Shown: piece by piece, positions 7,752 through 38,171 of the stretch
Layout: each line of letters opens with the position of its first letter
Numbering within the stretch: position 1 is the first letter of the stretch
From: a virus
DNA: 41,368 bases
Reading direction: 5' to 3' (one strand)
IMG/VR virus record: IMGVR_UViG_3300022200_000113
Location: 1-41,368 of that record
Translations under genes and position numbers: made by a program
The notes under the pieces: generated by a model
What the model was told of the DNA's origin: nothing
Seen by the model: the letters and a program-made list of their open reading frames with translations, nothing else
Database searches by the model: none

Positions 7752-9397
7752 TAGAAATTTTCTCCTCTTACATTATTTTTAATAACCTGTTCAGGTTCTT
7801 TTCCATCTTCTAATAACTCAGGAAATTTATCTAAAGATACTTTGGTTACTGCTATTGGATTATGTGACTTATCTTCTCTATCTTTTTTTGGAAATCTTTT
7901 ATTAACACCGAACTCTGCATTAAATAATCTTTTCATTTCCTCTGCAGTCTTACCTCTATTCTCTTTCCATTCTTTATTTTTTAAAGAATTATAAAAACTT
8001 GCAAAAACAAAATATGCATGTTGATCTTCTATTAATACTGCACCGGTTTTAAATGCTGCATAAGTTCCTGCTTTAGGTCCATTCAAATATTTACCTAAAT
8101 ATTCTTCTAATAAGTCATCATCACTTGTACCTTTTGGTGGAGGTGTTGTTAACTTAGGTGGAAATAAATTATCTAATATATCTTGAAATTCATTTTGTTT
8201 TATTTTTGGTGGAACCATATCAGCTGCTGCACCAATGATTGCTCTAATATTATCCAGTTCAATAATTTGTTTTATATTCTTTGCTCTAACTTCTTTTGTA
8301 GTTTGTCCATCAGGTAATGTAACATTAAATACATATTGTGGTTCTTTATAAGTTATTTTTTGTAATCCAGATAATGCTGGAAAGATTCTTTTCTTATCTG
8401 ATAAATATCCAAAAGCTCTTCTCCTACATTCTGCTTTCATACATACTGGTTGTATTGGATCTTCATTACAAGTATGTCCTTTAGTTTCTCTAGCCCAAGA
8501 TTTTAATTTCTTTTTAGTTTTTTCTTCTGTCCAATCGATAACTCCGTTTGTTCCAGGTTCAAAGTATTTACCTGGTGCAGCAATAACCATTTTCTCCCAA
8601 TCATCTGGATATTTCTTTTTAGCAAAGACCATATAGTTGTATAAGAATCTATCTCTGCCATCTGTTAATTTATCTTTAGTTAATATTGCAAGACATGGTG
8701 GTCCATCATGAAATTCTTCTCCACCACCATTTAATATTTTTTTAGTATGATCTAAATTAAATTGTTCTAAATCATCTGCACTATATGTATTTGCTTCTAC
8801 TACATCTATAAATTGATCAAAAGTAAATCTAGTGCCATCTAAATTAAATCCAACTCTTTCTGTTTTTTTATAATAAGGTAGATTAATATACTGACCCATA
8901 TTCCAATTACCTTCAGCATCTTTACCTAATTCAGTTTGTTTTGGATATATTTCAATGTTAGTTGGAAGTTTTAATGTAAATAATAATCCTTCTAAAAAAT
9001 TTCTAATTGCAACTGCTCTAATTGGTTCTTTAACAAATAAATATAAATGCATACCACCACTTTTAGATCTAACTGGAACTAATGGTAAATTATGTTCTGC
9101 AATGATGTCTAAATATTTTTTATATGGAAAGTTTGAATAACTATGTTGCTTATCATCTATATCAATAGCACCAAACCTTGCCATTCCTCTATCATCACAA
9201 GGTTGAATACCTATAGATTGTTTTCCTAATAAATGATTTAAATAATCTCTATCTGTAATTTCTCTATGAGCCCAACCATAAACTGGTTTTGCTTTACCTG
9301 TACTAGGATCAATTGATAACCTTGATAAATCAGCTGTACCAAAGTTTCTTTGTAAACCTGTAAATGCTTCTATAAATTTTCTTTCTTTATTATCCAT
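7751..9397 (-). CDS. TOTE-type archaeo-eukaryotic primase
   Basis: A 548-residue primase-like protein. The N-terminal half carries AEP motifs: FGAIDIDD with catalytic D79 and D81, RSKSGGMHLYLF with S113/H117 (the SxxxH pattern), and IEIYPKQ with E149. This arrangement matches the TOTE conflict-system primase domain found in many marine phages. A later cysteine group (GHTCNEDPIQPVCMKAEC) may bind zinc. It likely makes primers for PolA. The C-terminal 150 residues contain no motif I recognise. It lies between the SF1 helicase and the ssDNA-binding candidate. Confidence 0.88.
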   Translation of the reverse strand: MDNKERKFIEAFTGLQRNFGTADLSRLSIDPSTGKAKPVYGWAHREITDRDYLNHLLGKQSIGIQPCDDRGMARFGAIDIDDKQHSYSNFPYKKYLDIIAEHNLPLVPVRSKSGGMHLYLFVKEPIRAVAIRNFLEGLLFTLKLPTNIEIYPKQTELGKDAEGNWNMGQYINLPYYKKTERVGFNLDGTRFTFDQFIDVVEANTYSADDLEQFNLDHTKKILNGGGEEFHDGPPCLAILTKDKLTDGRDRFLYNYMVFAKKKYPDDWEKMVIAAPGKYFEPGTNGVIDWTEEKTKKKLKSWARETKGHTCNEDPIQPVCMKAECRRRAFGYLSDKKRIFPALSGLQKITYKEPQYVFNVTLPDGQTTKEVRAKNIKQIIELDNIRAIIGAAADMVPPKIKQNEFQDILDNLFPPKLTTPPPKGTSDDDLLEEYLGKYLNGPKAGTYAAFKTGAVLIEDQHAYFVFASFYNSLKNKEWKENRGKTAEEMKRLFNAEFGVNKRFPKKDREDKSHNPIAVTKVSLDKFPELLEDGKEPEQVIKNNVRGENF

Positions 9398-9448: not shown

Positions 9449-10261
9449 TTAGAAGTGTGAAGCTTCACCTTTAGCAGAATCATTTGATTCGCCATGTTTA
9501 ACTTTCACATCTCCTTTTGATACACTATCAGCAAAAGACTTAGCTTGTTGATATAATACAGCATCCTGCACTGGACCAATTTTGCTAACTTCCCAACCAA
9601 ACCATGTACCTTTGTCATTTGATTGTTGAGTTGTTCTCAACTTATATGTATGACTAAAGAAAGCTGGAGTAAACATTCCGTTCTTTCCTTTCATCTTTAT
9701 ACTAGCCATCATACTATTCCACTTTCTACTAATCTTTAATTGCGTCGATTTCATGGCAATTAAAGCAGTTGAAGGTGTATTACTATTGACTACTACAAAA
9801 TGACTTGCAGTCTTTTCAATATAATTACCATTAGGTAATCTATCTTTATAGTCTGCACCTCTCGTAGTCTTAGTCATGATATCACTAGAAGATGAGTGAA
9901 TAGCAACGGGTGCTCCGGAACCTTCGCCTCTATCTTGCCATTCAATATATTCTAATTTGTAATGACAAGGAATAACTTCGATTCCTTTTTCACCATCAAA
10001 CAATTCACCAGTTACAGAGTTGTAAATCATTCCGGCTTCAGCGCCTTGAACATATTTACCATCTCTTTTATTAACTTCTGGAGATAATTGTCCGAGTATT
10101 TTTAGGAATGGTAATGCTAAATCTTCATGAGTTAGATTTTCCACACCTTGATTTGCATCAGCTTCAAACATGTTGACAGATAATGCACCTGCAGTAACTT
10201 TTTCAGTAACTGCAGAATTGGTTTTTGGTTCTTTGTTCTTGATTATTTGTTCTTGCGACAT
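9449..10261 (-). CDS. Candidate single-stranded DNA-binding or replication protein
   Basis: A 270-residue protein. The start at 10261 is chosen because AAGGAGG lies seven bases upstream; a longer reading to 10282 lacks a ribosome site. The centre is beta-rich (GIEVIPCHYKLEYIEW; FVVVNSNTPSTALIAMK; FFSHTYKLRTTQQSNDKGTW) and the C-terminus is acidic/polar with a terminal aromatic (GEASHF). A beta-rich core with a flexible tail is the usual shape of phage ssDNA-binding proteins, and it sits beside the primase. No diagnostic motif is visible, so the role is inferred from shape and context. Confidence 0.6.
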   Translation of the reverse strand: MSQEQIIKNKEPKTNSAVTEKVTAGALSVNMFEADANQGVENLTHEDLALPFLKILGQLSPEVNKRDGKYVQGAEAGMIYNSVTGELFDGEKGIEVIPCHYKLEYIEWQDRGEGSGAPVAIHSSSSDIMTKTTRGADYKDRLPNGNYIEKTASHFVVVNSNTPSTALIAMKSTQLKISRKWNSMMASIKMKGKNGMFTPAFFSHTYKLRTTQQSNDKGTWFGWEVSKIGPVQDAVLYQQAKSFADSVSKGDVKVKHGESNDSAKGEASHF

Positions 10262-11555: not shown

Positions 11556-12989
11556 ATGAATTATAAATTTAAAACTAAACCATATGCACATCAAATAACT
11601 GCATTGGAAAAATCGTGGAGTAAAGAAGTATTTGCATACTTTATGGAAATGGGAACTGGTAAATCAAAAGTTCTTATTGATAATATATCTATGCTATACG
11701 ACAAAGGTAAAATTAATGGTGCTTTAATTATTGCACCTAAAGGTGTTTATCAAAACTGGTATGATACTGAAATTCCTACTCACATGGCAAACCATATAGA
11801 AAAAGATGTTGTGTTATGGAAAGCTATGATTAATCAAAAGCAACAAAATGAATTAAATAAATTATTTGTATCTACAGAAAAACTTCATATTTTATGTATG
11901 AATGTTGAAGCATTCTCAACTAAAAAAGGTTTAGAGTTTGCAGCTAAATTTATGAGTTGTCATAATACAATGATGGCTATTGATGAGTCTACTACTATTA
12001 AAAATCCTGATGCTAAAAGAACTAAAAATATTGTAGCACTTGGTAAGCATGCTAAATATAGAAGAATTTTAACTGGTTCTCCCGTAACTAAATCACCATT
12101 AGATTTATATAAACAATGTGAATTTCTTGATCCTTGGTTATTGGAATATAGTTCTTACTACGCATTTAGAACACGATATGCAATTATGAAGTCTGCAAAC
12201 TTTGGTGGTCGTTCAGTTCAAATTGTAGTTGGTTATAGAAACTTAGGTGAGTTATCTAAAAAACTAGAACCATTTTCATATCGTTGTTTAAAAGAAGATT
12301 GTTTAGATTTACCTGATTACACATATACTAAACGTGTTATTCAATTAACTCCTGAACAGAAAAAAATATATCAACAAATGAAAATATTAGCATTGGCCGA
12401 ATTGAATGGAAAACAAATGACAACTCAATCTGCTATGGTTCAATTAATGAGACTTCATCAAATTACTTGTGGTCATTTTACTGCTGATGATGGTACGATT
12501 AAAACTATTAAAAATGAAAGACTTGATGCATTAGTAGATATATTAGATGAAGTAGAAAACAAAGCGGTTATCTGGGCCCACTATAGACATGATATAGATG
12601 CTATTGTTAATGCTGTTGAAACTCATTTTGGTAAAGATTCATATGTGACTTATTATGGTGATACTACAAATGAAGATAGACAAAAAGCTATTAAAGAAAT
12701 CCAAGATCCAAATAGTAAAGTAAGATTTATTATTGGTACACCACAAACTGGTGGTTATGGTATTACATTAACTGGTGCTAATGTTATGGTTTATTATGCT
12801 AATGGTTATGACTATGAAAAAAGAATACAATCAGAAGCTAGAATAAATCGTGCAGGTCAAACTAGAAAAATGACTTACATTGATATCATTGCAGAAGATA
12901 CAGTTGATGAAAAAATTGTAAAAGCTTTAAGAAGTAAAATGAATATCGCTAGTAAAATAACGGGTGATGATCTTAAATCATGGATTTAA
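11556..12989 (+). CDS. SNF2-like superfamily 2 helicase/translocase
   Basis: A 477-residue SF2 ATPase. Motif I is FMEMGTGKSK (Walker A, 32-38), motif II AIDESTTIKNP (D143-E144), motif III LTGSPV (172-177), and motif VI SEARINRAGQTRKM. The second RecA domain has GTPQTGGYGITLTGAN and ends with EDTVDEKIVKAL, typical of the SNF2/HepA group found in phages. It would translocate on double-stranded DNA, remodelling forks or displacing proteins. It is on the opposite strand from the other replication genes and has its own promoter. Confidence 0.93.
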   Translation: MNYKFKTKPYAHQITALEKSWSKEVFAYFMEMGTGKSKVLIDNISMLYDKGKINGALIIAPKGVYQNWYDTEIPTHMANHIEKDVVLWKAMINQKQQNELNKLFVSTEKLHILCMNVEAFSTKKGLEFAAKFMSCHNTMMAIDESTTIKNPDAKRTKNIVALGKHAKYRRILTGSPVTKSPLDLYKQCEFLDPWLLEYSSYYAFRTRYAIMKSANFGGRSVQIVVGYRNLGELSKKLEPFSYRCLKEDCLDLPDYTYTKRVIQLTPEQKKIYQQMKILALAELNGKQMTTQSAMVQLMRLHQITCGHFTADDGTIKTIKNERLDALVDILDEVENKAVIWAHYRHDIDAIVNAVETHFGKDSYVTYYGDTTNEDRQKAIKEIQDPNSKVRFIIGTPQTGGYGITLTGANVMVYYANGYDYEKRIQSEARINRAGQTRKMTYIDIIAEDTVDEKIVKALRSKMNIASKITGDDLKSWI

Positions 12990-26352: not shown

Positions 26353-26516
26353 TAGCTAAAAAACCAGTTTTTACGATCTTCTTCATTTCGAAGATCTTGT
26401 TGATATCCAAAGTTAAGTTCATTTTTTAAAGTATCTAAACCATCTCGTAATTGCCTTTGGTTGGTTTCTTGATATTCAGGAGTTGGTTCAGGAATAATTG
26501 CAGTAATCTTTGCCAT
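26352..26516 (-). CDS. Small tail-region protein (54 residues)
   Basis: A 54-residue gene: ATG at 26514-26516 overlaps the tail hub stop as TAATG, and its own TAA (26352-26354) overlaps the next ATG. It starts MAKITAIIPEPTPEYQETNQ and ends in EEDRKNWFFS, with a helical charged centre. The exact fit at both ends and the style of product make it a real gene. Function unknown. Confidence 0.7.
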   Translation of the reverse strand: MAKITAIIPEPTPEYQETNQRQLRDGLDTLKNELNFGYQQDLRNEEDRKNWFFS

Positions 26517-28459
26517 TATCTTCTACCTCCAGCTTGAATATCTAATCTCAAAGTTCCATATCTCCAAGATTGATTAACTGCATCATTTTCTATTTTTAAA
26601 CTTACTTGTCTTCCTCTAACTCTTGTACTATGAAAAGTTGTAGTAGTATTACATGTAAATGGACCAGTAATCAAGGGACCATTAGAATCTGATTGTTCTG
26701 TTTGACCTGGATAGTTTCTAAAAAACATAGTAACTTTTGCATTGCCAGATAAATTTTTAAAGTCGGGTATAAATCTAGATACTCTCATAATGTTTTCTCC
26801 ATCTCCTGCAATCCCTTGTTGTGCAGATATATCATAATCACCTGATTGGATATAAGATGTAATAGCTGTTGATACTCCATTTGCATCTACTTCATTCACT
26901 CCAGTTTCATGAGCCCAAAATTTAGATGAGCCATAAGTATTTGTCACACCATTAATAGTTGGGAAACTTGGTGTGCCATTAGTTGTAAACTGTGAAGCAT
27001 AAGGTAATGCGTAAGTATGGTTATCTGAATATGCAGTTCTAGATAAAGAACCTGTTGTCCAGGTATTTTCTAAAAAATTAAATACAACATTTCTATTTAT
27101 TTGTTGAGAACCCGATGCTGCATAGAACCAACCCACTTCATTATATAAAGAGTTGTGATACCCATATGCAATTTGATTTGCATCTGCATTATATCCTAAA
27201 TTATCTCCTTGTGTTGTAAATACAAAATCTTCAACTAATGATGGGAGTTGTTTAACCGTACCATCAAACATAAAAAAGCCTCCACCAAATCCCATCCAGA
27301 AAACCGCTCCTTGTGCATACACTGCTGCATGTTGACCTAAACATCCACAGTTAGAACCTACTTGTCTAATACTAAATGTAAAAGGTGAACCCACAAACTG
27401 TATTTGATAAGCTGCTTGATCCGTGAGTACTAATATATAATCCTTACCTTGAACTGCAGTTATAATTTCATTACCTTGGTCAATTAAAAATGTACCTGCA
27501 GTATTAGTTGCTGTAGGTTGCCATGTATTAATATCTTCTTGATTAGAGAATCTTATAAACATTTTGTTTTGAGAAGTTGAATCTGATAAGTTATCTAAAG
27601 TTCCCATTAAAAATAAATGTCTATCTCTATCAGAAACTAAACTCATTAAAGATGTTGTGGGAGCTCCTGATACAATTGATGCTCTAGTTTCCAATGCTCC
27701 AGAACCTGAAGGACTCCAGGTATAAGTTGCACCATTTCTAACAGTTGCAACTAGCAACTGGCCGTAATTATCGAGTGACCAGGAGCCAGGATCTAATTGA
27801 ACGTTAGTTGTTGAAGCAGCATCGCCCCAACCCTGACCTGCTGCAGCCCAAACATCCACACCCCAACCATATGCTGGTGTTTGAAACACTGGGCCAATTG
27901 TAATATATGAATTTAAAGTTGCTGAACCTTGAGTTGACATACCTGTGCCGGTTTCATTTGATGGCATGGTAATTGTAAAAGTATTTCCTGTAGGTACTGA
28001 AATAATTTCAAATACATTCGTTGTAAAATCTGCTGTGGTATATCCAGTTACTCCACCGCCAGGTAAAGTAACGGATTTAAATTTAAAATAATCACCAACA
28101 GATAAACCATGTGAAGTTAAATTAACTGTTACTGTCGCTGAACCTGTTGTTGAATCAAAAGTACATCCTGTTTGATCTGCATTAATAGGTGTAATATCAT
28201 AAAAACCACCTTCATAATAAATAACTAAAATTTTAGCAGTACCTAAAGCTGCATATTTTCTTCCCTGTAAATCTGTCCAAGTATGTTGATTTCTGACAGG
28301 TCCTGATAATGTATTATTAACTAGTTCTTGCCAACCACCTATTTTTTCGGGTTGGCCATATCTAAAACGTACATTATCTCCATCTACCCATTGCCCTTCG
28401 GCACCGGTTTCTGTAGCTTGTTTATTAAAACCTGGCTTAAATTGTATTTTTTGCAGCAT
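26516..28459 (-). CDS. Large tail protein, P22 gp10-like hub or stabilisation protein
   Basis: A 647-residue beta-rich protein with N-terminus MLQKIQFKPGFNKQATETGA and a C-terminus YGTLRLDIQAGGRR. Many short beta blades (FIRFSNQEDINTWQPTA; GAVFWMGFGGGFFMFDGTVK; VVFNFLENTWTTG) suggest a propeller-like tail hub or packaged-DNA stabilisation protein of podoviruses. An AAGGAAG site precedes the ATG. Its 5' end overlaps the nucleotidyltransferase gene by 23 bases, tying the accessory cassette to this virion gene. Confidence 0.75.
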   Translation of the reverse strand: MLQKIQFKPGFNKQATETGAEGQWVDGDNVRFRYGQPEKIGGWQELVNNTLSGPVRNQHTWTDLQGRKYAALGTAKILVIYYEGGFYDITPINADQTGCTFDSTTGSATVTVNLTSHGLSVGDYFKFKSVTLPGGGVTGYTTADFTTNVFEIISVPTGNTFTITMPSNETGTGMSTQGSATLNSYITIGPVFQTPAYGWGVDVWAAAGQGWGDAASTTNVQLDPGSWSLDNYGQLLVATVRNGATYTWSPSGSGALETRASIVSGAPTTSLMSLVSDRDRHLFLMGTLDNLSDSTSQNKMFIRFSNQEDINTWQPTATNTAGTFLIDQGNEIITAVQGKDYILVLTDQAAYQIQFVGSPFTFSIRQVGSNCGCLGQHAAVYAQGAVFWMGFGGGFFMFDGTVKQLPSLVEDFVFTTQGDNLGYNADANQIAYGYHNSLYNEVGWFYAASGSQQINRNVVFNFLENTWTTGSLSRTAYSDNHTYALPYASQFTTNGTPSFPTINGVTNTYGSSKFWAHETGVNEVDANGVSTAITSYIQSGDYDISAQQGIAGDGENIMRVSRFIPDFKNLSGNAKVTMFFRNYPGQTEQSDSNGPLITGPFTCNTTTTFHSTRVRGRQVSLKIENDAVNQSWRYGTLRLDIQAGGRR

Positions 28460-28796
28460 TCAACTTCCTTATTTTTGTAGCAGAAATAGCCTGTATTTTA
28501 TCAGGTAATACTATTTCTTCAACCTTATATCCTACGTCTCTACCATAGCATATATTGGTTATATTTGGAACTTGAATTATTTCAAATTTTCCTTTGTATT
28601 CTCGTAAGGCATACTTAATTTTTTCTTTAACTTGCTCAAAATCATAAGGATTGTTTTCAGATATAGGCATTGATCTAACCATAATAATTACTTGCCCTGT
28701 CTTTTCTAAAGATTTTTTAAACAATTCTTGATGTCCTTGATGCCAAGGTTGCCATCTTCCTAACATCAATGCTGTCGGTTTATCCCAATCTATCAC
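28437..28796 (-). CDS. HxGH nucleotidyltransferase (NMN/PPAT-like)
   Basis: A 119-residue enzyme. GRWQPWHQGH at 13-22 is the HxGH nucleotide-binding motif (H19, H22) and ISATKIRK near the C-terminus is the ISxTxIR motif. The family includes NMN and phosphopantetheine adenylyltransferases and, more distantly, ATP sulfurylase. The sequence is closest in style to NMNAT-type enzymes (GRFQPxHxGH) but is shorter. It overlaps the APS-kinase-like gene by 17 bases. Substrate not determined by sequence; a link to sulfate activation is possible from context only. Confidence 0.8.
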   Translation of the reverse strand: MIDWDKPTALMLGRWQPWHQGHQELFKKSLEKTGQVIIMVRSMPISENNPYDFEQVKEKIKYALREYKGKFEIIQVPNITNICYGRDVGYKVEEIVLPDKIQAISATKIRKLNAAKNTI

Positions 28797-29169
28797 GAAG
28801 TTCCTTTATAATTTTATCATAATCATAGTCATCTATAATGTAATTTGGGTTTAAAGGTCTTTCAAATATTTGATTGGTGTCTTCATATCTTCCAGATTCA
28901 ATAGTATTCATCCAAATTGTAATATCATAATATTTTCTATAGTCATCAAAAGGACATATAAAATCTACTACACAATTTTTAGTTGTTAGTTTAGTTAACC
29001 TTTCCATTCGAATTGCTTGTCTAGTTCTAGCAGCTGGAGCAAAATCCCAATCACTAAATATAGTTCTTATTTCATCAGCATTAAAATAAGCAACATTTAA
29101 ATCTTTACATAATTTTTTAGCAAAGGTTGTTTTTCCAGATCCAGGTAATCCATATATTAATATATTCAT
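28780..29169 (-). CDS. Adenylylsulfate (APS) kinase-like P-loop kinase
   Basis: A 129-residue kinase. GLPGSGKTT (7-15) is the P-loop; FNADEIRTIF (29-38), then FAPAARTRQAIRM, mirror the APS kinase DGDNxR ... FSxxDRxxNxR pattern, and VVDFICPF (67-74) mirrors FISP. The family makes PAPS from adenylylsulfate. It is shorter than cellular CysC (about 200 residues), and the C-terminal lid is divergent (ITIWMNTIESGRYEDTNQIF), as in other marine phage members. With two sulfotransferase-like genes close by, PAPS supply is a reasonable role, but another small-molecule kinase activity is possible. Confidence 0.75.
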   Translation of the reverse strand: MNILIYGLPGSGKTTFAKKLCKDLNVAYFNADEIRTIFSDWDFAPAARTRQAIRMERLTKLTTKNCVVDFICPFDDYRKYYDITIWMNTIESGRYEDTNQIFERPLNPNYIIDDYDYDKIIKELRDRLG

Positions 29170-29702
29170 TATGGATAAAAATTAAAATTAATAACTATTC
29201 TACAGTTTTTATCAGTGCAGCTTGTTCCTGAATGAGGAGTATTTGCATCAAAAAAAACTATTTTATTTTCTTCACTGTTTACTTTTGTCTTACCTATTTT
29301 AGTGTAACCATTACAAGTATTTATATAATATACAGCAGTGACCATGCCTTTTAAACTTGTTTGAGATCTATGAATTTTATCTATTGTCCCTATTTCAATA
29401 TTATCAGCTATATTAAAATCTGTATGTTCTCCATGTACACAAATTTTATTTGTTTTTGTCAATAAGTTAGCTTTAATTCTAACAATTGAAGTAGGTTTTA
29501 TTTTATCTATAATAGGGACTAAATCATCAACGTGTTCTGATTTAGGAGAATATTCATCATAAAAAGTATGAACAAGTTGAAAATGACCGTCATCATATCT
29601 TGTAACTCCTTCAACAAAAGTCCAGTTAAATAAGTGACTAGTCATTTTATTTTTAAGTGCACTAAATTGTTCGTAAGGTAAAAAATTTTTTATAATCTTC
29701 AT
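29169..29702 (-). CDS. 2OG-Fe(II) oxygenase-like protein
   Basis: A 177-residue double-stranded beta-helix protein. The iron triad is visible: H93-x-D95 in HGEHTDFN, distal H157 in TPHSGT, with R168 in CRIVINFNF positioned to bind 2-oxoglutarate. These enzymes hydroxylate proteins, nucleic acids or small molecules. It is joined to its neighbours by one- and four-base overlaps. One of six such genes in this cassette; substrate unknown. Confidence 0.72.
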   Translation of the reverse strand: MKIIKNFLPYEQFSALKNKMTSHLFNWTFVEGVTRYDDGHFQLVHTFYDEYSPKSEHVDDLVPIIDKIKPTSIVRIKANLLTKTNKICVHGEHTDFNIADNIEIGTIDKIHRSQTSLKGMVTAVYYINTCNGYTKIGKTKVNSEENKIVFFDANTPHSGTSCTDKNCRIVINFNFYP

Positions 29703-30247
29703 ATTTTTATATTGTCACTTTTTACAAAATTTAAATTTAAAGAGAAAATAGATTTTCTATTATTACTTTTATTAATAGGTGATCTATGTAAAAGATAAGA
29801 TGGAAATATTATAAAATCACCTTCTTTTAATTTTGTTGTTTTTAAAATAGATTTTGTTTTATAATCTAGTATCTCTGTTTTCATATTAGAATCTTTTAAC
29901 TCTAGGTAATATACACTACTGTAATTACAGTCTGGATGCGTGTGCCAATCATGAAAATTATTTTTTGTGTATTGTTGAAACCAAGATTTTATAATTCTTA
30001 CATGCTCACAATAAAAAAACTTAGCTGTTTCTAATAAATAAGGTGTTAACATTTTATATAAAGTATCTACATATTCTCTTTTAGTATTACTATCTATATT
30101 CCAATCAGTCTTATAAATATTTTGATGTTGTTGATCTATTTTTGATTTAGGTGTTTGTTCAATTAAAGATAATAATTTTTCTTTATATTGATTGTGCTCT
30201 TTAACATGATGCACAAAATAGTAACTATTTATATCTTTTATAATCAT
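29699..30247 (-). CDS. 2OG-Fe(II) oxygenase-like protein (Oxy_5 type)
   Basis: A 182-residue protein with WHTHPDCNYSSVYYLEL (H102, H104), IIFPSYLLHRSP (H154) and R164 in NNRKSIFSL. The HxHP...SxVYYL and FPS..H pattern is that of the small 2OG-FeII_Oxy_5-type family. If H102/H104 replace the usual HxD, iron binding may differ. It overlaps both neighbours by four bases. Target unknown. Confidence 0.68.
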   Translation of the reverse strand: MIIKDINSYYFVHHVKEHNQYKEKLLSLIEQTPKSKIDQQHQNIYKTDWNIDSNTKREYVDTLYKMLTPYLLETAKFFYCEHVRIIKSWFQQYTKNNFHDWHTHPDCNYSSVYYLELKDSNMKTEILDYKTKSILKTTKLKEGDFIIFPSYLLHRSPINKSNNRKSIFSLNLNFVKSDNIKI

Positions 30248-30834
30248 TTATCATTCACATAGGATAGCGCTGACATATCTCCAAAACTTTCAAAAATAAA
30301 AGTATTAAAAGATAAACTAAACCTTACTAATTCCGTATGGTTTACAGGAACCTGATGTTGTATATTTGATGGAAACAATATTAACTCTCCATCTTTAATT
30401 TCAAATAACATATTAGAGTAATTATAAGGAGTATTTTTTCCAGAAAATATAATCTGTTTTTTATCACTAGTAGAAAAAACAATAGGACATCCAGTTCCCT
30501 CTACTTTAAAATAGAATACGCCGCTAAGAATACTATTTGGGTGATAGTGAGGATGATGCTCAGAACCTTTATTATTTTGATTACACCAAGACTGCGTAAT
30601 TTTTAAATTATGAGACACACCTAAAACTTCTTTAGAATAATTTTTAATTGATTCATCAAAAAAAGTTTTTAGTTTTTTTAATTTTTTATTACTTAAAATA
30701 AAAGAATCTTGACTTTTATAATTGGAAACATTTTTAATGTATTCAACTGATTGAATATATTTAAATTCTTTATCAAAATTATCTTGATATCTAAAGACTC
30801 CAACCGTAGTTGGAAACATATTTATAAGTTCCAT
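30244..30834 (-). CDS. 2OG-Fe(II) oxygenase-like protein (Oxy_5 type)
   Basis: A 196-residue paralogue-like protein with HHPHYHPNSILSGVFYFKV (H96, H98, N100), LILFPSNIQHQVPVN (H160) and R171 in VRFSLSFN. This is a clear 2OG-FeII_Oxy_5 pattern. It differs enough from the two preceding oxygenases that it is not a recent duplicate. The start overlaps no upstream gene, with a six-base gap. Substrate unknown. Confidence 0.75.
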   Translation of the reverse strand: MELINMFPTTVGVFRYQDNFDKEFKYIQSVEYIKNVSNYKSQDSFILSNKKLKKLKTFFDESIKNYSKEVLGVSHNLKITQSWCNQNNKGSEHHPHYHPNSILSGVFYFKVEGTGCPIVFSTSDKKQIIFSGKNTPYNYSNMLFEIKDGELILFPSNIQHQVPVNHTELVRFSLSFNTFIFESFGDMSALSYVNDK

Positions 30835-30840
30835 ACTTTC

Positions 30841-31182
30841 TTAGTAGGTACAAATATTATCTGTGTTTTCCTCCGGATGTATTGTGTACCAAATTTTTTT
30901 AGCAGCTTGATTCCAGTTAAAAGGAACTGGAGTATCAGGAGCATCCCCTAGTGGATTTCCTGGTTGTGTTTCATCAGCTGGCATTAAAGTTTGTAAATGA
31001 GTTTCTATATCTGCAATAGAAGTTAATTCACCATCTCCATTATTTGATGGATTGTCTACCGATAAACCTATCGCAGGTCTAGTATTTTGATCTAATAATC
31101 TAACGTCTTGAAAAAAAGTTTTTTCTATATAATCAGGCGCTTCATTACCTGTCATAGTGAATTTAAGTATTTTCTTTGCCAT
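30841..31182 (-). CDS. Hypothetical acidic 113-residue protein
   Basis: A 113-residue acidic protein (SVDNPSNNGDGELTSIADIE; PADETQPGNPLGDAPD) with a C-terminal FNWNQAAKKIWYTIHPEE segment. No known motif. It overlaps the upstream coiled-coil gene by 20 bases. It sits within the oxygenase/sulfotransferase cassette and may be a substrate or partner rather than an enzyme, but that is speculation. Confidence 0.55.
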   Translation of the reverse strand: MAKKILKFTMTGNEAPDYIEKTFFQDVRLLDQNTRPAIGLSVDNPSNNGDGELTSIADIETHLQTLMPADETQPGNPLGDAPDTPVPFNWNQAAKKIWYTIHPEENTDNICTY

Positions 31183-32050
31183 TTTTTTTACCTGTGTTTT
31201 TAGTAGCTAAAGAAGACTTATCCATTATATTAAAGTTTTTATTTTTAACATTTAAAATAACGTCATCTTTAAAAATGTTATAACATTTCTCTAAAAATTG
31301 TAAAGTCATCTTTTGAGTAGGATATTTGCCTTCTTTTAATAATTCTTCCTCTTGTATTAAATAGTCTGTCAAAAGGGTTTGAGCAGTAGCTCCATTTACA
31401 CCAATATCAAAAAGGTATATATAATTACCTTCATCTATTCTACCTCCACTTGCTCTGGCTGCATGTAAGGCTTGTTTCATAGCAGTATATATATGATGTT
31501 TTATTTCTCCTTTTTCATACTCTTCTTCAGTAATATCTTTTTTACCTAAATTTTTTAATAAAGTTTCATATTGATTAGTAAAAAAATTTAACTTTCTAAT
31601 CCCACCTCTAATGTATTTCATAGCATTTTTATTACCTACTTCCATATGAAGTATCCTTGCTTCTAACATTTCTTTTTCTAAATCATCTTTAGTTTCAAGT
31701 AATTTTCTTCTTCTTTGATTAATCATAATCTCAGTCTTTTTTATATTTAACATACCTTCTTCAATACCGTTTTTAGTTTGTTCTATTTCTGCAAGAAGAC
31801 CATACATTTGTCTCTCAGGGGTAAGGTAAGTTACATCAACACTAACTTCCATAAACTGAGATTTAGCCTTATAAAAATTTTCTAAAGTTTTTGAAATAGC
31901 AGGCATTTTTTTATTGATATTTTTTATCATGCCTTTGTACTGTTTACTAACTTGAGGAAGATGTGTTTGAATATCTTTAATAACTAAATCAGAAGAATGT
32001 TCTTGATTAGATAGTAAATTACTTACTGATTTATTTTTCTTTTTACTCAT
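31163..32050 (-). CDS. Long coiled-coil protein of unknown function
   Basis: A 295-residue helical protein. A coiled coil spans roughly residues 75-150 (LLAEIEQTKNGIEEGMLNIK; DDLEKEMLEARILHMEV) and a globular C-terminal part includes YTAMKQALHAARASGGRIDE. Similar coiled-coil proteins occur in marine T4-like and pelagiphage genomes without known function. It overlaps the sulfotransferase-like gene by eight bases. A scaffold or structural role is possible. Confidence 0.6.
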   Translation of the reverse strand: MSKKKNKSVSNLLSNQEHSSDLVIKDIQTHLPQVSKQYKGMIKNINKKMPAISKTLENFYKAKSQFMEVSVDVTYLTPERQMYGLLAEIEQTKNGIEEGMLNIKKTEIMINQRRRKLLETKDDLEKEMLEARILHMEVGNKNAMKYIRGGIRKLNFFTNQYETLLKNLGKKDITEEEYEKGEIKHHIYTAMKQALHAARASGGRIDEGNYIYLFDIGVNGATAQTLLTDYLIQEEELLKEGKYPTQKMTLQFLEKCYNIFKDDVILNVKNKNFNIMDKSSLATKNTGKKNGKENT

Positions 32051-32639
32051 CGGTTATAACCTTTCCTAATTGCCAATACCAAAACTTATTACTTTTTAAA
32101 ATTTGTTGATATATAAAATAATCTATTTCAAGGTATTTTTCAAGAGATGTTTTAAAATTAATATTGTTATTAATAAATTTATTTATTTTATTTTTAATAG
32201 TTGAAGATCCTTTATTTTCGTGAAACACGGTATTAAAATTAATTTTTAAAAAATCATTTAAATCTTCATGTTTCACAAACATATTAACCTTACTACCTAT
32301 TAAATAAGTAGATTGTAATATAGTTAAAGGAATTAAAGATATAGATCTTAATTCAGGATCAATGGTATTAAACAATAATTGTTTTAAATTTAATTTATTC
32401 AAATCTATATTTGAAATAGATAGATTATGAGCAAGTCCAGATACAAATCTTTCTTTAGGATCTCTAAAAATGGTCCAACAAAACTTACCACTTTGTAAAT
32501 TTTGATTCATGGTCCAATTAATTTTTTTATTTTCTAAAGTCTTAAATACAGACTGACAACCTGTTTTATGTATTAATAAATATTCAAAATTTTTAGTTTC
32601 TATAAATTCTAAATTTTGAACAAACATATTATTTTTCAA
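32043..32639 (-). CDS. Sulfotransferase-like protein (Sulfotransfer_2-like)
   Basis: A 198-residue protein. LLIHKTGCQSVFKTL (21-35) resembles the 5'-phosphosulfate loop (PKTGGTSL type) and WTIFRDPKERFVSGLAH (55-71; R59, R64, S67) matches the 3'-phosphate loop of PAPS-dependent sulfotransferases of the carbohydrate type. Such enzymes transfer sulfate from PAPS to a hydroxyl on a glycan or similar acceptor. It is shorter than most cellular homologues. Overlaps with both neighbours suggest coupled expression. Confidence 0.7.
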   Translation of the reverse strand: MKNNMFVQNLEFIETKNFEYLLIHKTGCQSVFKTLENKKINWTMNQNLQSGKFCWTIFRDPKERFVSGLAHNLSISNIDLNKLNLKQLLFNTIDPELRSISLIPLTILQSTYLIGSKVNMFVKHEDLNDFLKINFNTVFHENKGSSTIKNKINKFINNNINFKTSLEKYLEIDYFIYQQILKSNKFWYWQLGKVITDE

Positions 32640-33099
32640 AACTTTTAAAAGCTAAAGTCACTCTTGGAGTATTTATTTCTTTAGGTGCTCTACCTCTATG
32701 TTTCTTTTTAGCATCAAAAATAACTAGTCTATTAGCAACAAAATCTATTTTATTTATTTTATCTGTCTTAATCTCAAACTGCCCAGAACCTTTAGACAAG
32801 GTAGGAGAAATCATAACTAACGCTGTTTTAGTTCCAGGATCCACATGCCAATCTCCATCCATACCATTAAACTGCATATTTGTATAACAACCTTCAAATT
32901 CTTTAAAATCTGTATGAGGTAAAATTTTTTTAGCTATAAAATTTAAAGTGGGATCTTTAACATTTAAAGAAGCAATAAAAAATGTATTACCATTTTCGTC
33001 AACAGAAGTTTGAGAATATTTGTAATTAGCTTCATAAATCAATAAATCTTGAATATGATTAAAAAAATCTAATTCTAAAAAATTATCTATAATCTTCAT
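32629..33099 (-). CDS. 2OG-Fe(II) oxygenase-like protein
   Basis: A 156-residue double-stranded beta-helix protein with all key residues: H85-x-D87 in DWHVDPGT, distal H134 in KKKHRGRAP, and R146 in PRVTLAF for 2-oxoglutarate. The pattern fits prolyl-hydroxylase-like enzymes. It overlaps both the sulfotransferase-like gene and the next oxygenase. Substrate unknown. Confidence 0.78.
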   Translation of the reverse strand: MKIIDNFLELDFFNHIQDLLIYEANYKYSQTSVDENGNTFFIASLNVKDPTLNFIAKKILPHTDFKEFEGCYTNMQFNGMDGDWHVDPGTKTALVMISPTLSKGSGQFEIKTDKINKIDFVANRLVIFDAKKKHRGRAPKEINTPRVTLAFKSFEK

Positions 33100-33764
33100 A
33101 CAATTCTATGACATGTTCCAATAGGAAAATAAGGAGCGACAATTTCTTGAAAAAATATAACCATCGTTAATCTTTCTTCTTCATCAGTACCGTAACCATC
33201 TGCAGCGTGCCATTGAGCGGCATCAAAAGAAATAGCTCTGTTATAAATTCCTTTAAAAGTTGTAGTTTTTTCAAATTGATCATTACTCTCTTTTAAAGCA
33301 TTAACATGTTCTTTAGACACGTTTTTATTTCCATAAAGTAAAGAGGAGTTCCATTCGCCATGTAATTCTTCTGCAAATAATTTTTTAGGTCTATATATAG
33401 AAGTTCCTTTTGTACAATTTTTCGATAAATAAATTATTGATGAAAGCATGTTTGGTATATCTCTATGTACCCATCCAGTATTTATTTCTTCATTAAATTT
33501 TTCTATTTTTTGAAAATAACTTGCCGCTTGAAAATGTATAATTTGATTAGAGAAAGCGGTGGTTCTAAAAGGATAATACATACTTAAAACTTTCATACAA
33601 ACGTAGTTATGAAAAGTAGGGTTTAAAATATGCAAACTTTCAGTTCTTTCTCCAGGCCAATAGTCACCTTTAGTTTTCCTTTTATATTTTAACGTTGAAG
33701 CATAATTTTTAACTTCATCAGGTCTATCAAAAAAATTATCTATACACAAAGATGGAAAATTCAT
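33096..33764 (-). CDS. 2OG-Fe(II) oxygenase-like protein (DUF6445-like)
   Basis: A 222-residue protein with GWVHRDIPNMLSSIIYLS (H100-x-D102), ISFDAAQWHAADGYG (H186) and ERLTMVIFF (R198). This order fits the DUF6445-type relatives of 2OG-Fe(II) oxygenases, which are frequent in marine phages. It is larger than the other five. It ends one base before the sulfotransferase gene begins. Substrate unknown. Confidence 0.72.
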   Translation of the reverse strand: MNFPSLCIDNFFDRPDEVKNYASTLKYKRKTKGDYWPGERTESLHILNPTFHNYVCMKVLSMYYPFRTTAFSNQIIHFQAASYFQKIEKFNEEINTGWVHRDIPNMLSSIIYLSKNCTKGTSIYRPKKLFAEELHGEWNSSLLYGNKNVSKEHVNALKESNDQFEKTTTFKGIYNRAISFDAAQWHAADGYGTDEEERLTMVIFFQEIVAPYFPIGTCHRIV

Positions 33765-34544
33765 TTACAAAGCTCCTTTTTTAAAAGCCGTAATAATAGA
33801 TTCTTCCAATACTTTAGATGCATATTTTTTAACAGGTTTTATTTTTTTATCTATTTTATATAGATTCTTGCCTAATAAAAAATTATTGTAAGAAATATTA
33901 TTTGGTTTGAAGTCTTTTAAATTATTAAAATCGTGTTTAAAACTTTTTATATTTAAAAAATGATATATTTTATTTATTTCTTTATCTGGATTTTTAGTTA
34001 AATCATAAAAATTTATAAATAAAGAATTTTTGTTTTCTTTTTCTTTTAGATAACTTATCACATTCCATTCAGTTTTTATAAAACCTTCATCACTCATCAT
34101 AAATTTACATTTATAAAAATCGTTAGTTAATTGTTCAATTTGATTTAAATATGCAGTAGGTTCTTTTTTAGACCATTTAATTAAAGAAGCTAATACTTCT
34201 AAAATATCTCTTTCTAATACGATAAATTTTATTTTTCTATCTGGATAATACTCTCTTAATCTTAAAATAATATCAGGACTTAAGGTCGTTCTTTGAATAA
34301 TATATTTAGCTTTCCAATCTTTATAATAAAGATCAATACAATTTTTTATAATATTATTAATAGAATTATGATCAGGATAACTTACAAATATTTCTGATAA
34401 TTTATAATCTACTAATTGATTAAATAAAGGACTTATAAAATTATGAGAGGTTACCTCTACTTCTTTATTTTGTTGAAATATAGATCCAAGTAATGAATGA
34501 CCTGATCTTGGTAATCCGACTAAAAATATTAAATCTCTTTTCAT
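33765..34544 (-). CDS. Sulfotransferase-like P-loop protein
   Basis: A 259-residue protein. FLVGLPRSGHSLLGSIF (7-23) is the 5'-phosphosulfate binding loop, and IKFIVLERDILEVLASLIKW (105-124; R112, S120) is the 3'-phosphate region of PAPS-dependent sulfotransferases. Length fits the family. The second sulfotransferase-like gene in the cassette, not closely similar to the first, which suggests different acceptors. Overlaps the next oxygenase by four bases. Confidence 0.8.
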   Translation of the reverse strand: MKRDLIFLVGLPRSGHSLLGSIFQQNKEVEVTSHNFISPLFNQLVDYKLSEIFVSYPDHNSINNIIKNCIDLYYKDWKAKYIIQRTTLSPDIILRLREYYPDRKIKFIVLERDILEVLASLIKWSKKEPTAYLNQIEQLTNDFYKCKFMMSDEGFIKTEWNVISYLKEKENKNSLFINFYDLTKNPDKEINKIYHFLNIKSFKHDFNNLKDFKPNNISYNNFLLGKNLYKIDKKIKPVKKYASKVLEESIITAFKKGAL

Positions 34545-35089
34545 ATATTTTTTGAACTTTTAAAATTTCTACTAAGAATGTCCCAATTCCAAACCATAGA
34601 AATTCTTTCTTTTTCTTTGATTGGATTAACCCAGTGAGTTAAATAACCTGGAAAAGTTAAAATTAAACCTTCCTCAATTTCAAATACACCTGCTTCTGTT
34701 CTAAAAGGTTCGCCTTTAGAGAAGTATAATGTAGAAGAAAATTCAGCGCTACCATGTACATGTTCTTGTACATAATGACCTTTATTTAAAATATTACCCC
34801 ATGCAGCCATGATTCTCATTTCATATAATGAAGAATTTTCATGACTTATATTATTTGCTGAAAACATTCCGGGTAAAAATTTTTTATTAATAAAATCTAA
34901 AAACTTTTCATCTTTTAAAAAAGAATCAAATAAACTCATTTGACCTTTTACATTGGTTACAAAATTATTTGCACCTACGTCTTTTTTTATTTTGTTTTTA
35001 AAATAATTTAAAAGTTTTTTATCATCAATAAATGATTTATAAATTTCTATTTTTTTATTAATTACAAAACCGTGCTTTTCTACTTTCAT
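34541..35089 (-). CDS. 2OG-Fe(II) oxygenase-like protein (Oxy_5 type)
   Basis: A 182-residue protein with HYVQEHVHGSAEFSSTLYF (H110, H112), LILTFPGYLTHWVNP (H152) and R162 in ERISMVWNW. It is the first gene of the accessory cassette in transcription order, following the tail fibre gene after a 41-base gap with small hairpins. The HxH (rather than HxD) arrangement is shared with two other cassette members. Substrate unknown. Confidence 0.7.
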   Translation of the reverse strand: MKVEKHGFVINKKIEIYKSFIDDKKLLNYFKNKIKKDVGANNFVTNVKGQMSLFDSFLKDEKFLDFINKKFLPGMFSANNISHENSSLYEMRIMAAWGNILNKGHYVQEHVHGSAEFSSTLYFSKGEPFRTEAGVFEIEEGLILTFPGYLTHWVNPIKEKERISMVWNWDILSRNFKSSKNI

Positions 35090-35094
35090 TTGGT

Positions 35095-35136
35095 GAGTTA
35101 TATATCATAACTCAAATAAAATGTCTAGGTTTAGAC
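35095..35136 (-). terminator. Two small hairpins between tail fibre and accessory cassette
   Basis: Reading the minus strand, GTCTA-AACC-TAGAC (35123-35136) overlaps the tail fibre stop and is followed by ATTTTATTTG, a weak terminator-like signal. Next GAGTTAT-GATAT-ATAACTC (35095-35113) forms a 7-bp AT-rich stem just before the oxygenase start. Together they mark the module boundary and may reduce read-through into the cassette. Both stems are weak. Confidence 0.4.
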
Positions 35137-36090
35137 GGTATTTCCACCTGTATTAGTACAGGCCATATTACCACCACCATCTTGTCCTGTAGTTCCAAAA
35201 GTCGTGAAACTTCCTGTAGATGCAATTGTACATTTTTGCATTGCCGAGTTACCATCTCTAAAAATACCTACAGTTACAGAACCCCCTTGTTGAGCTCCTT
35301 CAAAACCCCTTATAGTATCAAAAGTTGTTGCGTTACCTGTAGATGCAATAGTAACATATCCCGCTACAGTTTGTTGAGCTCCGATGGCTCTTGTCGTACT
35401 TGAACAAGCTCCTCCACCTCTAGAGTTTTGAGAGTCTCCAAATGCAGTAGAGTTTCCAGTTGAAGCAATTGTAATGTAATCAATATCGTTTCTTGCAGGG
35501 CCATGTACGTTTCCAAATCTACCCCAATAAATTCCTCTAGTTGGACTGCCTGCTCCACCTACAATTCTTCCGTAAGGAGTTAAGTCTCCAAACTTAACAG
35601 CATTACCTAATGAAGCATAATCAACATAATCAATATTAGAATTCCAAGTTCCAGGAGGAAAAGTTGAAGAGTTAGTTTGTCCCGCCCAGCAAGATCGTGT
35701 TGTGCTTGTGGCTGTTCCTACTGAACTGTTTCCACCAGTGTTAGCTCCGCCACCACCAGTTCTAGCTACAACATAACCAAAAAAATTAGCATTCCCTGTA
35801 GATCTCATAGTGATATATCCACCACCATTGTTTTGAGCAAAGCTGCCCGCTGAAAAAAATACTCCTCTAGTTGAGCTTGAACTACCAGAATTATCACAAT
35901 TACCAATTGAAGGAGCAATGTCGCCAAAATAAGCAAAATCAGAAAGGTCTTCTACAATCATGTATTGCATGGTTCTTGTACCACCAACATCATGACCAGA
36001 ACTAACAAGTACACTTCCTTTTAAAAGTGCTAATCCTGCAAAACCAAAACCTCTGTTTGATCCGCCTCCTCTAGAACCTAAAATTGGCAT
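35131..36090 (-). CDS. Repeat-containing tail fibre or receptor-binding protein
   Basis: A 319-residue Gly/Ser/Thr-rich protein built from about six degenerate repeats around a core such as YITIASTGNSTAFGDS, GYVTIASTGNATTFDTI or DYVDYASLGNAVKFGDL. The repeats are spaced by variable Gly-rich loops that often contain STTR. It suggests a beta-propeller or beta-helix distal fibre. It lies between the other tail fibre genes and the accessory cassette. GGAGG precedes the ATG at a slightly long distance. Receptor specificity unknown. Confidence 0.72.
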   Translation of the reverse strand: MPILGSRGGGSNRGFGFAGLALLKGSVLVSSGHDVGGTRTMQYMIVEDLSDFAYFGDIAPSIGNCDNSGSSSSTRGVFFSAGSFAQNNGGGYITMRSTGNANFFGYVVARTGGGGANTGGNSSVGTATSTTRSCWAGQTNSSTFPPGTWNSNIDYVDYASLGNAVKFGDLTPYGRIVGGAGSPTRGIYWGRFGNVHGPARNDIDYITIASTGNSTAFGDSQNSRGGGACSSTTRAIGAQQTVAGYVTIASTGNATTFDTIRGFEGAQQGGSVTVGIFRDGNSAMQKCTIASTGSFTTFGTTGQDGGGNMACTNTGGNTV

Positions 36091-36108
36091 CTTTCTATAA
36101 TCCTCCTA

Positions 36109-37185
36109 TTATGCAAACTGTGTTTGCGATGCTAATACTGTAAAAGTAGAAGATGCTGTTTTAATAGCAGTATATGTATAAACATCATTTGATGACACGT
36201 TTCCACCTGTAGGCGCAGATCCACCTTGCCATACTGGAGTTACAGTTGAACCATCTACTTGTACTGTAGTATTGTAATAAGCTGTTGCGTTTTGTTTTGT
36301 AATAACTGCTAAAGTTACAGATTCACCTGTATCCATAGACGCATCTAAAGAGTTTGAACCATCACCTCTTAAATTAACTGTAAAGTTTGCAGAAGCTGCT
36401 GCAGTATATAAAACTACACCTTGTGTATTTGTATCAACGTTAATATCTGAATCAAAAGAACCAGTTACAGTTACTTTTTCTGCAAGACCATTAATCTTAC
36501 CATTACCATTTAATGTAACTCTTCCAATACCTTTTGGTGTTAAATTTAAATCAATATTTGTATCTGTTCCAACCGCTGCAACATCTGGAGGTGATCCAGT
36601 TGCTTGGTTAGTTACATCCAAAAAGTTTACAGCTGAAGCTGTTTTTTGAAATCTAATGTATGGATTGTTTGCATCATCTTCAATTGCACCCGCATCATCA
36701 ATAACAATATCGTTTCCATTTGTATCTAGTATTCCAGATAGTGATGGAGAAATATCGTTTGAAACTTTTCCAATATTTGAATCTGCAACATCAGTTCCAT
36801 TTACGTATACAAGTTTTGCACCTTTATCAGTAGCTGAGAAAGTTACACCTGTTTGACCAGAAACTTTTACAGTTACAGTAAAAGCACCTGATGTGCTGTT
36901 TTTAACAATGTAAACTTTATTAGTTACACTCGTTGGAATAGTAACATCAACATTACCTGTGATTGTTCCAGTTAATTCGATAACTGCATTTTTACCATTT
37001 GAAGTTGCTGCGTTTGTAAATGCAAGAGTTGCACCTGTTGTTGCGTTTAATGCAACTTGTTCAAAACCAGCGATAGCTTGTTGTAAAATTACTAAATTTG
37101 TATTTGTGATGTCACCCCATAAACCAGCTTTTTCACCGGTAACCATCAACTCTAGTTTAAGATCTGTTGAATAACTTGATGCCAT
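36109..37185 (-). CDS. Tail fibre protein, Thr/Val-rich
   Basis: A 358-residue protein starting MASSYSTDLKLELMVTGEKA. The N-terminal region (LWGDITNTNLVILQQAIAGF) has the form of a virion-anchoring domain common in marine phage fibres. The rest is beta-rich with many T, V and G residues (LDLNLTPKGIGRVTLNG-type stretches). The N-terminal WGDxTNxN pattern is a familiar tail fibre marker. AAGGAAT precedes the ATG. Ends in ASQTQFA. Confidence 0.75.
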   Translation of the reverse strand: MASSYSTDLKLELMVTGEKAGLWGDITNTNLVILQQAIAGFEQVALNATTGATLAFTNAATSNGKNAVIELTGTITGNVDVTIPTSVTNKVYIVKNSTSGAFTVTVKVSGQTGVTFSATDKGAKLVYVNGTDVADSNIGKVSNDISPSLSGILDTNGNDIVIDDAGAIEDDANNPYIRFQKTASAVNFLDVTNQATGSPPDVAAVGTDTNIDLNLTPKGIGRVTLNGNGKINGLAEKVTVTGSFDSDINVDTNTQGVVLYTAAASANFTVNLRGDGSNSLDASMDTGESVTLAVITKQNATAYYNTTVQVDGSTVTPVWQGGSAPTGGNVSSNDVYTYTAIKTASSTFTVLASQTQFA

Positions 37186-37220
37186 AATTTTTAATTCCTT
37201 ATTTTATTAATTTACTAATT

Positions 37221-38171
37221 TTAAGCGGCCGTGTCAATAATATTCCAAGTGACATTTGAACCGGTATCGACAATCTGCCAAGCTTGAACATTAATGCTAT
37301 TAATTTCTACTGTCAAGCCAATTCCTGTTAAAGGTACCTCGGCTGAAGCACCTGCTACTGCACTATTTAAACTAATATTTAACTGTTGTCCAGTAGGTTC
37401 TGCAATAGTTACAGCATCTAATACTGCTGTTCCTAAATTAACTGTTAATTCTATGCCTGTAACATCTATGTCAGCAGTCCCTGAAACACTACCTAATCCA
37501 ACTCCTACAGTCATACCAATACCTGTAACTGTAGCATCTGGACTTGGATCTGCCGTTCCTTCTTCTGCTATTAAACCTATTCCTGTTGGTGATGCAATAG
37601 TAACGGGTTTCGCTTCAACTGTTCCAAGATTAGCTGTTAAACCTATTCCAGTTGTTTCACCAAAAGCCCAGAAACCAGAAGCTCCCCAAACTTCTTCTCC
37701 CCAATAAGTTCTTCCCCAACCTTCTTCGTTATATGCTTCTAAATTTCCTGTAGATAAATTTTGTTGTTGACCAGTAACTAAAGCATCTGGCGCAGGATCT
37801 ACAATACCCTCTGAAATTGTTAAACCTTGTAATGGATTATTTTGTAAAAATACTTCTACTGCAATATCAATTCCAACATTATTTAAAGATATATTTAACT
37901 GTTGACCTGCTAATTCTGGTGCAACATCAATTGTAACTGAACCTGTTCCAATACCAACATTTAATCCAATACCAGTGACTGCAACATCACCAGCAATACC
38001 CCAGGCGTTTTCACCCCAGGTTAATCTTCCCCAACCTTCATTTATTTCTGCTGAAACTCCAACATTATTTTGAGCACAACTTAACTGTTGTCCAGTTAAG
38101 GAAACAGAAGCGTCATTCTGTAATCCCCATGAACCTGTACTCCAACTTAGTTCGCCCCAAGCATTGGCCAT
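37221..38171 (-). CDS. Tandem-repeat tail fibre protein (GQQL / TGIGL repeats)
   Basis: A 316-residue protein made of repeated beta strands. Two repeat types alternate: GQQLNISLNN-like and VTGIGLTVNLGT-like units, about 20-45 residues apart. The N-terminal half also has WGRLTWGENAWG-type repeats (three copies). This looks like a beta-solenoid fibre. The start is behind AGGAGGG that lies inside a small hairpin (38172-38191), so expression may be tuned. Function in adhesion or fibre extension is inferred. Confidence 0.7.
   Translation of the reverse strand: MANAWGELSWSTGSWGLQNDASVSLTGQQLSCAQNNVGVSAEINEGWGRLTWGENAWGIAGDVAVTGIGLNVGIGTGSVTIDVAPELAGQQLNISLNNVGIDIAVEVFLQNNPLQGLTISEGIVDPAPDALVTGQQQNLSTGNLEAYNEEGWGRTYWGEEVWGASGFWAFGETTGIGLTANLGTVEAKPVTIASPTGIGLIAEEGTADPSPDATVTGIGMTVGVGLGSVSGTADIDVTGIELTVNLGTAVLDAVTIAEPTGQQLNISLNSAVAGASAEVPLTGIGLTVEINSINVQAWQIVDTGSNVTWNIIDTAA

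Follow-up and report, generated by a model that had tools for sequence, protein, structure and literature searches.

A candidate PAPS-making gene pair beside sulfotransferases in the tail slot of a probable SAR11 phage

What supplies 3'-phosphoadenosine 5'-phosphosulfate (PAPS) to the sulfotransferases that marine phages carry? The role of these phage enzymes has been called unclear, and a PAPS-making partner was not described in the reports on them (PMC10580990). Here we analyzed a virus record of 41,368 bases (IMG/VR IMGVR_UViG_3300022200_000113; hereafter the window, meaning this whole stretch), in which a run of genes at 28437–35089 lies on the minus strand and is transcribed from 35089 to 28437. 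This run consists of twelve open reading frames (ORFs): six oxygenases of the 2-oxoglutarate (2OG)-Fe(II) type, two sulfotransferase-like genes (ST1 and ST2), a P-loop kinase, a small nucleotidyltransferase (NTase) and two genes without an assigned function. We consider it probable, at about 0.62, that the kinase and the NTase are a minimal two-protein pair that makes PAPS for the sulfotransferases of this region, with the sulfated acceptor most plausibly in the tail or fibre or in a glycan carried by them.

An original prediction, made by reading the letters of the window, had counted ten enzyme-like genes here. All ten were located, ST2 as a probable assignment, although two further ORFs (30841–31182 and 31163–32050) had been missed. 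The prediction had also placed the run between a tail hub gene and tail fibre genes. The run is indeed co-directional and mostly overlapping, and it is flanked by fibre-like genes (35131–38171) and by a virion structural gene (26516–28459), but the 'tail hub' label given to the latter was not substantiated. We refer to the region between these two boundaries, and to its equivalent in related phages, as the tail slot.

The kinase, the NTase and their sulfotransferase neighbors

The kinase (28780–29169, minus strand, 129 aa) is a member of the APS (adenosine 5'-phosphosulfate) kinase family as judged from its sequence. It matches PF01583 at 24.5 bits (cut-off 21.1), with AAA-type and other P-loop families scoring similarly, and is again above the PF01583 cut-off in a whole-genome profile search. 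The best full-domain PDB matches of its family profile are APS kinases, with E-values down to 2e-10; the two sequences ranked above them match over P-loop stretches only. The P-loop is intact. Arg34, Phe42 and Arg47 are invariant in 21 relatives and align with the APS-site residues (motifs DGDNxR, LGF and DRxENxRR) of the APS kinase 3cr7. The original prediction had staked its linked pathway of sulfate activation and sulfotransfer beforehand on the kinase grouping with APS kinases, as it does in these full-domain matches.

Downstream and overlapping the kinase lies the NTase (28437–28796, minus strand, 119 aa, GTG start), which matches PF01467 at 24.2 bits (cut-off 21; 4.2e-5). The two proteins correspond to the two halves of a single family, phrog_10255, the kinase to residues 2–102 and the NTase to residues 124–226 (2e-26), and they are fused into one gene in some phages and some SAR11-related genomes. 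The kinase and NTase form a single module whose cellular counterparts lie in APS/PAPS operons, a connection that the original prediction did not make.

ST1 (33765–34544, minus strand, 259 aa) reads as a clear sulfotransferase. It is above the cut-offs for both PF00685 (9.3e-12) and PF13469 (2.5e-9), and both PAPS-site motifs, GLPRSGHSLL and ERDILEVLAS, are present by eye, so that the PAPS-binding residues expected in the original prediction are found in this protein. Its sequence is 27–30% identical to phage sulfotransferases of cyanophages S-SKS1 and S-SRM01 and of OM43 phages, with which it shares sulfotransferase families. ST2 (32043–32639, minus strand, 198 aa) does not itself match any Pfam or PHROG family and is a probable Sulfotransfer_2-like protein. 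It carries the motifs HKTGCQS and FRDPKERFVSG, of which HKTGCQS and RDPKERFVSG recur in a 40%-identical relative in another slot, L050, which itself scores 18.7 bits against PF03567 (Sulfotransfer_2), below the cut-off of 22. An IMG/VR search for further ST2 relatives returned solely what appears to be the window virus itself, and a structure model of ST2, with a predicted confidence (pLDDT) of 39 from three sequences, was not used. In the L050 slot, which lies before the virion gene at 10001, 11 of the 13 slot genes, including this only other ST2 relative, are opposite in strand to the virion genes.

Is the association of the pair with sulfotransferases particular to this virus? For an unbiased test we took 38 distinct, non-redundant slots reached only through the virion gene. 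A sulfotransferase was present in 5/5 slots with the kinase/NTase and in 2/33 slots without (Fisher P=4e-5), a strong link that bears out the predicted co-occurrence in related phages. This test replaces a first one (P=9e-9) for which loci had partly been reached via the NTase or a sulfotransferase itself. Among 47 tail-slot loci with the kinase, counts that related loci still inflate, a sulfotransferase lies immediately upstream in 32 and somewhere on the locus in 41. Four of the six kinase loci without a detected sulfotransferase end near the kinase, and the others are L122, which holds a Sulfotransfer_2 gene above cut-off, and L126. Three fragments (L134, L136 and L137) carry a sulfotransferase and the kinase with no NTase detected, and on L161, a phage contig outside the tail-slot group, sulfotransferase and kinase stand side by side. 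On the NTase tree, tail-slot NTases fall into three or more distinct positions, counted as changes of the tail-slot label at starred branches of what is a coarse tree of few columns, and the tail-slot link therefore spans more than one lineage.

Two further loci are worth recording. Directly upstream of the L126 kinase, in the position that a sulfotransferase normally occupies, a 228-aa gene with no Pfam match (L126:5171–5857) begins MKTIFHTSFCASTYL and is possibly a divergent sulfotransferase. At L024:8182–8355 a 57-aa remnant of the NTase, with no kinase, shares the slot with a sulfotransferase, an apparent case of decay of the pair.

Cellular counterparts and the proposed chemistry

Relatives 57–60% identical to the NTase adjoin the APS reductase genes aprMBA, or cysH, in marine bacteria. 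In SAR11 the NTase gene is directly upstream of aprM-aprB-aprA at 23/80 loci, with AprB confirmed by PF12139, and in a second arrangement, seen in 11 genomes, it is convergent with aprA at a distance of 372–644 bp. Across 118 SAR11-order genomes, 84 have both NTase and aprA and 17 have neither (P=1e-8); the canonical ATP sulfurylase family, PF01747, occurs in 5 of the 118. On the NTase tree, the Apr-linked copies nest among fused genes, as if the kinase had been lost where only the step from APS to sulfate is needed. In a second alphaproteobacterial order the arrangement cysH-DUF2061-kinase-NTase is found in 4/4 genomes, preceded by cysG and a sulfite reductase at L200 and L212. PF01747 is present in one of these four genomes. 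One of the four was searched for PF01507 and yielded a single protein, which is CysH, so this genome has no CysD. In this order, the pair occupies the place expected of CysC and CysDN. A fused kinase-NTase copy elsewhere (L217) adjoins a sulfotransferase. Outside SAR11, in a phylum-wide sample, the NTase occurred in 1/397 genomes, as a fused gene (G481) with no sulfur-gene neighbors within the 3.3 kb examined.

These settings coincide with a reported gap in SAR11 sulfur metabolism. cysDNCHIJ and sat are reported missing from 'Ca. P. ubique' (PMC5069961), and AprBA, one of the core enzymes of SAR11, is subject to the strongest purifying selection, in a pathway described as incomplete (PMC12636525).

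We propose that the NTase would convert ATP and sulfate to APS, an NMN (nicotinamide mononucleotide) adenylyltransferase (NMNAT)-like protein thus carrying out ATP sulfurylase chemistry, and that the kinase would phosphorylate APS to PAPS. ST1, and probably ST2, could then spend this PAPS on an acceptor made in late infection, for which our best guess is part of the tail or fibre, or a glycan on it; the position of the run within the structural block favors a virion component as the target. APS would be the simplest substrate common to all settings, as AprBA makes it, the NTase would interconvert it with ATP and sulfate, and the PAPS formed by the kinase may be consumed by CysH or by a sulfotransferase. 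The NTase reaction is proposed from the cellular context, aprMBA and cysH, which we take as decisive; profile and, weakly, fold point to NMNAT.

The closest known parallel is PAPS synthetase, as in metazoan PAPSS or in bacterial CysC with CysDN or Sat, which likewise joins an APS-kinase-family kinase to an adenylyltransferase, adjacent or fused. The kinase comes first in the PAPSS fusion, as in the fused phage and bacterial copies, and the pair described here also sits beside users of PAPS (sulfotransferase, CysH). Unlike that system, the adenylyltransferase here is a 119-aa NMNAT-like protein without a PF01747 match or ATP sulfurylase motifs, and its kinase has only 129 aa.

The variable slot and its other cargo

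The virion structural protein at one boundary of the slot (26516–28459, minus strand, 647 aa; phrog_3287, 2.8e-79) is 56% identical to a protein of HTVC023P and 53% identical to one of HTVC027P, both cultured SAR11 phages; its relatives carry the annotation 'stabilization protein' or 'constituent protein'. The window virus is probably an HTVC023P-like podovirus with SAR11, the most abundant bacteria in the ocean, as its host, the host being deduced from what these two relatives infect. In the same slot HTVC023P has three annotated 2OG genes and a putative ferrochelatase, and HTVC027P one annotated 2OG gene, each with a glycosyltransferase downstream; several co-located 2OG genes in HTVC023P-type pelagiphages have been published (PMC9599517). 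The window shares with them the position beside a homologous virion gene, the multiple 2OG genes and the downstream glycosyltransferase. It differs in its sulfotransferase, APS-kinase-like and NTase genes, which are not annotated in that slot of HTVC023P or HTVC027P and which here replace the ferrochelatase and other cargo. At the other boundary, 35131–36090 (minus strand) encodes a Gly/Ser/Thr-rich repeat protein, probably a fibre, with repeats read by eye and no family match.

The six oxygenases, all on the minus strand, fall into three groups. PF13759 accounts for OG6 (34541–35089, 182 aa; 1.2e-9, phrog_81 1.1e-18), OG3 (30244–30834, 196 aa; 5.3e-19, phrog_81 3e-40) and OG2 (29699–30247, 182 aa; 3.6e-10, phrog_81 1.6e-26). 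OG4 (32629–33099, 156 aa; 1.2e-25, HVD...H...R) and OG1 (29169–29702, 177 aa; 6.4e-42, weakly PF13640 at 1.1e-4, HTD...H...R) belong to phrog_274, and OG5 (33096–33764, 222 aa) is a DUF6445 protein resembling 2OG oxygenases (PF20043 1.4e-13, phrog_1644 2.8e-32, HRD...H...R). All six keep the metal-site pattern of their own family by eye, HxD...H...R in three and the PF13759 pattern in the other three. The PHROG labels 'DNA endonuclease V' (phrog_274) and 'minor coat protein' (phrog_1644) look wrong for the 2OG-oxygenase- or DUF6445-like products of 29169–29702, 32629–33099 and 33096–33764.

The original prediction had singled out the density of the enzyme genes and their placement among tail genes, and suggested that the set could hydroxylate and then sulfate its target. 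We surveyed 80 loci collected via the virion gene, along with further loci reached via the NTase, ST1 and the kinase. The 46 distinct complete slots carry a mean of 4.4 2OG-family genes (median 4, maximum 11). Because 13/46 hold six or more, the array of six is ordinary, and we rejected oxygenase density as a novelty. 2OG genes are also plentiful in slots without sulfotransferases, and a coupled hydroxylate-then-sulfate pathway is not supported; they are standard slot cargo and need not share the sulfation pathway. What survives of the predicted pathway is the link between sulfate activation and sulfotransfer, on family, motif and co-occurrence evidence, and not its coupling to hydroxylation.

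The two remaining ORFs of the run, both on the minus strand, have no assigned function. One (31163–32050), which we call h295 (295 aa), has a weak phrog_1409 match alone (1.4e-4) and is unrelated by BLASTP to a 224-aa gene found near other sulfotransferases; the other (30841–31182, 113 aa) has no Pfam or PHROG family match. In this sample, the 35131–36090 type and h295 are confined to sulfotransferase slots (3/17 vs 0/29, P=0.045, a weak result uncorrected for several comparisons), and fibre type in general is weakly associated with sulfotransferase presence (P=0.045 to 0.13, uncorrected). Conversely, a 111-aa family (L079:6859–7212 and relatives) occurs in 13/29 slots without a sulfotransferase and in 0/17 with one (P=7e-4, uncorrected). 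Tryptophan halogenases (PF04820) and carbamoyltransferases (PF02543/PF16861) are found in the same tail slot of related phages (L038:2336–3823, L071:1395–2756 and L126:7043–8587). Elsewhere in the window, the main long plus-strand gene is an SNF2-type helicase (11556–12989), and a nearby primase on the minus strand (7751–9397) matches PF22548, the AEP of TOTE conflict systems.

Competing explanations and significance

Several observations weigh against a PAPS-making role. The kinase has Gln in place of the Asn of the APS-kinase motif DRxENxRR. The nearest profile relatives of the NTase are NMN adenylyltransferases, and Foldseek matches of its AlphaFold2 model (pLDDT 85) are NMNAT, phosphopantetheine adenylyltransferase (PPAT) and pantothenate synthetase, all with E-values of 0.001 or above. 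It scores 15.4 bits against the ATP sulfurylase family PF01747, below the cut-off of 24.3, and no ATP sulfurylase is among the PDB profile matches of its family or the listed Foldseek matches. Canonical ATP sulfurylases carry the motifs QxRN, HxxH and GRD. In an alignment the NTase has GRxQP-xHxGH instead, and only GR[D/G] resembles GRD. In most of the other phages that carry the pair (Stenotrophomonas, Xanthomonas and Clavibacter siphophages and T4-like contigs), no sulfotransferase or CysH scores above cut-off; many of these non-tail-slot sequences are fragmentary, and two of the large ones encode a sulfotransferase elsewhere, but three of those without are complete genomes (Bhz60, DLP_6 and Clavibacter phage 33), and the Bhz60 gene adjoins NADAR and MazG genes. 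We considered whether CysH might use the PAPS where a phage lacks a sulfotransferase and rejected the idea, as no CysH was above cut-off. Of the 118 SAR11 genomes, nine carry the NTase but not aprA, and eight aprA but not the NTase. The setting most often seen for kinase plus NTase in SAR11, at roughly half of the loci, places them next to Rieske, M24-peptidase and HalD-like genes, which have no evident connection to sulfur. Some 17 SAR11 loci have a HalD-like gene nearby along with Rieske and M24-peptidase genes; at L230:8360–9211 a HalD-like halogenase (PF23169 1.5e-11) directly follows the pair.

Could the pair instead serve pyridine nucleotides, as a NadR-like combination of nicotinamide riboside kinase and NMN adenylyltransferase that maintains nicotinamide adenine dinucleotide (NAD), for example against its loss during infection, so that the sulfotransferase link is incidental? 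The HxGH-superfamily motifs of the NTase (GRxQPxHxGH and ISATxIR) are shared with NadM-type enzymes such as MJ0541 (1f9a; GRxQPxHxGH and ISxTxIR), which give its best profile match (6e-11) and its top fold matches, and a NADAR-domain gene adjoins the pair in Stenotrophomonas-type phages. The NTase differs from these enzymes in being about 50 aa shorter (119 vs 168–181 aa), and in place of their middle/C-terminal segment it has an invariant YGRxVGY motif. It is accompanied by APS-kinase-like and sulfur genes instead of NAD genes, and the cellular neighbors surveyed were sulfur genes or others, with no NAD genes among them. An NAD module would leave unexplained the aprMBA and cysH operons, the strong tail-slot link with sulfotransferases and the full-domain matches of the kinase to APS kinases rather than nicotinamide riboside kinases, and we regard it as improbable. 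A somewhat better case, though still an unlikely one, can be made for a pair that phosphorylates some other metabolite and next transfers an adenylyl or cytidylyl group to it, serving nucleotide, glycan or small-molecule metabolism, with the sulfotransferases drawing on host PAPS and the pair hitch-hiking in the slot. This would suit both the T4-like and siphophage contigs in which no sulfotransferase was detected and the Rieske, M24 and HalD-like setting in SAR11. It accounts neither for the aprMBA and cysH neighborhoods nor for the kinase abutting a sulfotransferase in 32/47 tail-slot loci, and a host supply of PAPS is doubtful because cysDNC and sat are reportedly missing from SAR11 hosts.

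A more serious competitor, which we hold to be possible while still tending away from it, accepts that the pair supplies PAPS and places the sulfated (and separately oxidized) acceptor elsewhere, in a host surface polymer or small molecule, with the slot acting as a general accessory metabolic store. Bacterial sulfotransferases often act on glycans, the L217 pair lies within what looks like a surface-polysaccharide cluster, and the halogenase and carbamoyltransferase families of the slot are best known from natural-product chemistry. Similar enzymes, of the types carried as slot cargo, are scattered in cyanophages (PMC3037559). Against this, the genes sit within the structural block, share its direction and overlap it, and, as weak evidence, the 35131–36090 fibre-like type and h295 are confined to sulfotransferase slots in the sample.

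Our preferred reading, a PAPS-making pair feeding tail-slot sulfotransferases, extends to cells in a form to which we give about even odds. The two proteins would then be an unrecognized sulfate-activation system, minimal and not orthologous to the canonical one. As an ATP sulfurylase, the 119-aa NMNAT-like protein would supply the partner so far missing for AprBA in most SAR11 bacteria, completing the oxidation of sulfite and recovering ATP; with the small APS kinase it would yield PAPS for CysH in the second alphaproteobacterial order and for pelagiphage sulfotransferases. The literature we searched, with few terms and with most subscription journals outside its coverage, held no earlier description of the pair as sulfate-activating. 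Of these results, the proposal that this protein is a non-canonical ATP sulfurylase in phages and SAR11 has the most value. If true, the gap reported for SAR11 as 'missing sat' is filled by the NTase: the phage cassette directs attention to one particular small gene, often adjoining aprMBA, as the missing ATP sulfurylase, and it offers a concrete hypothesis for how marine phage sulfotransferases may be supplied with PAPS.

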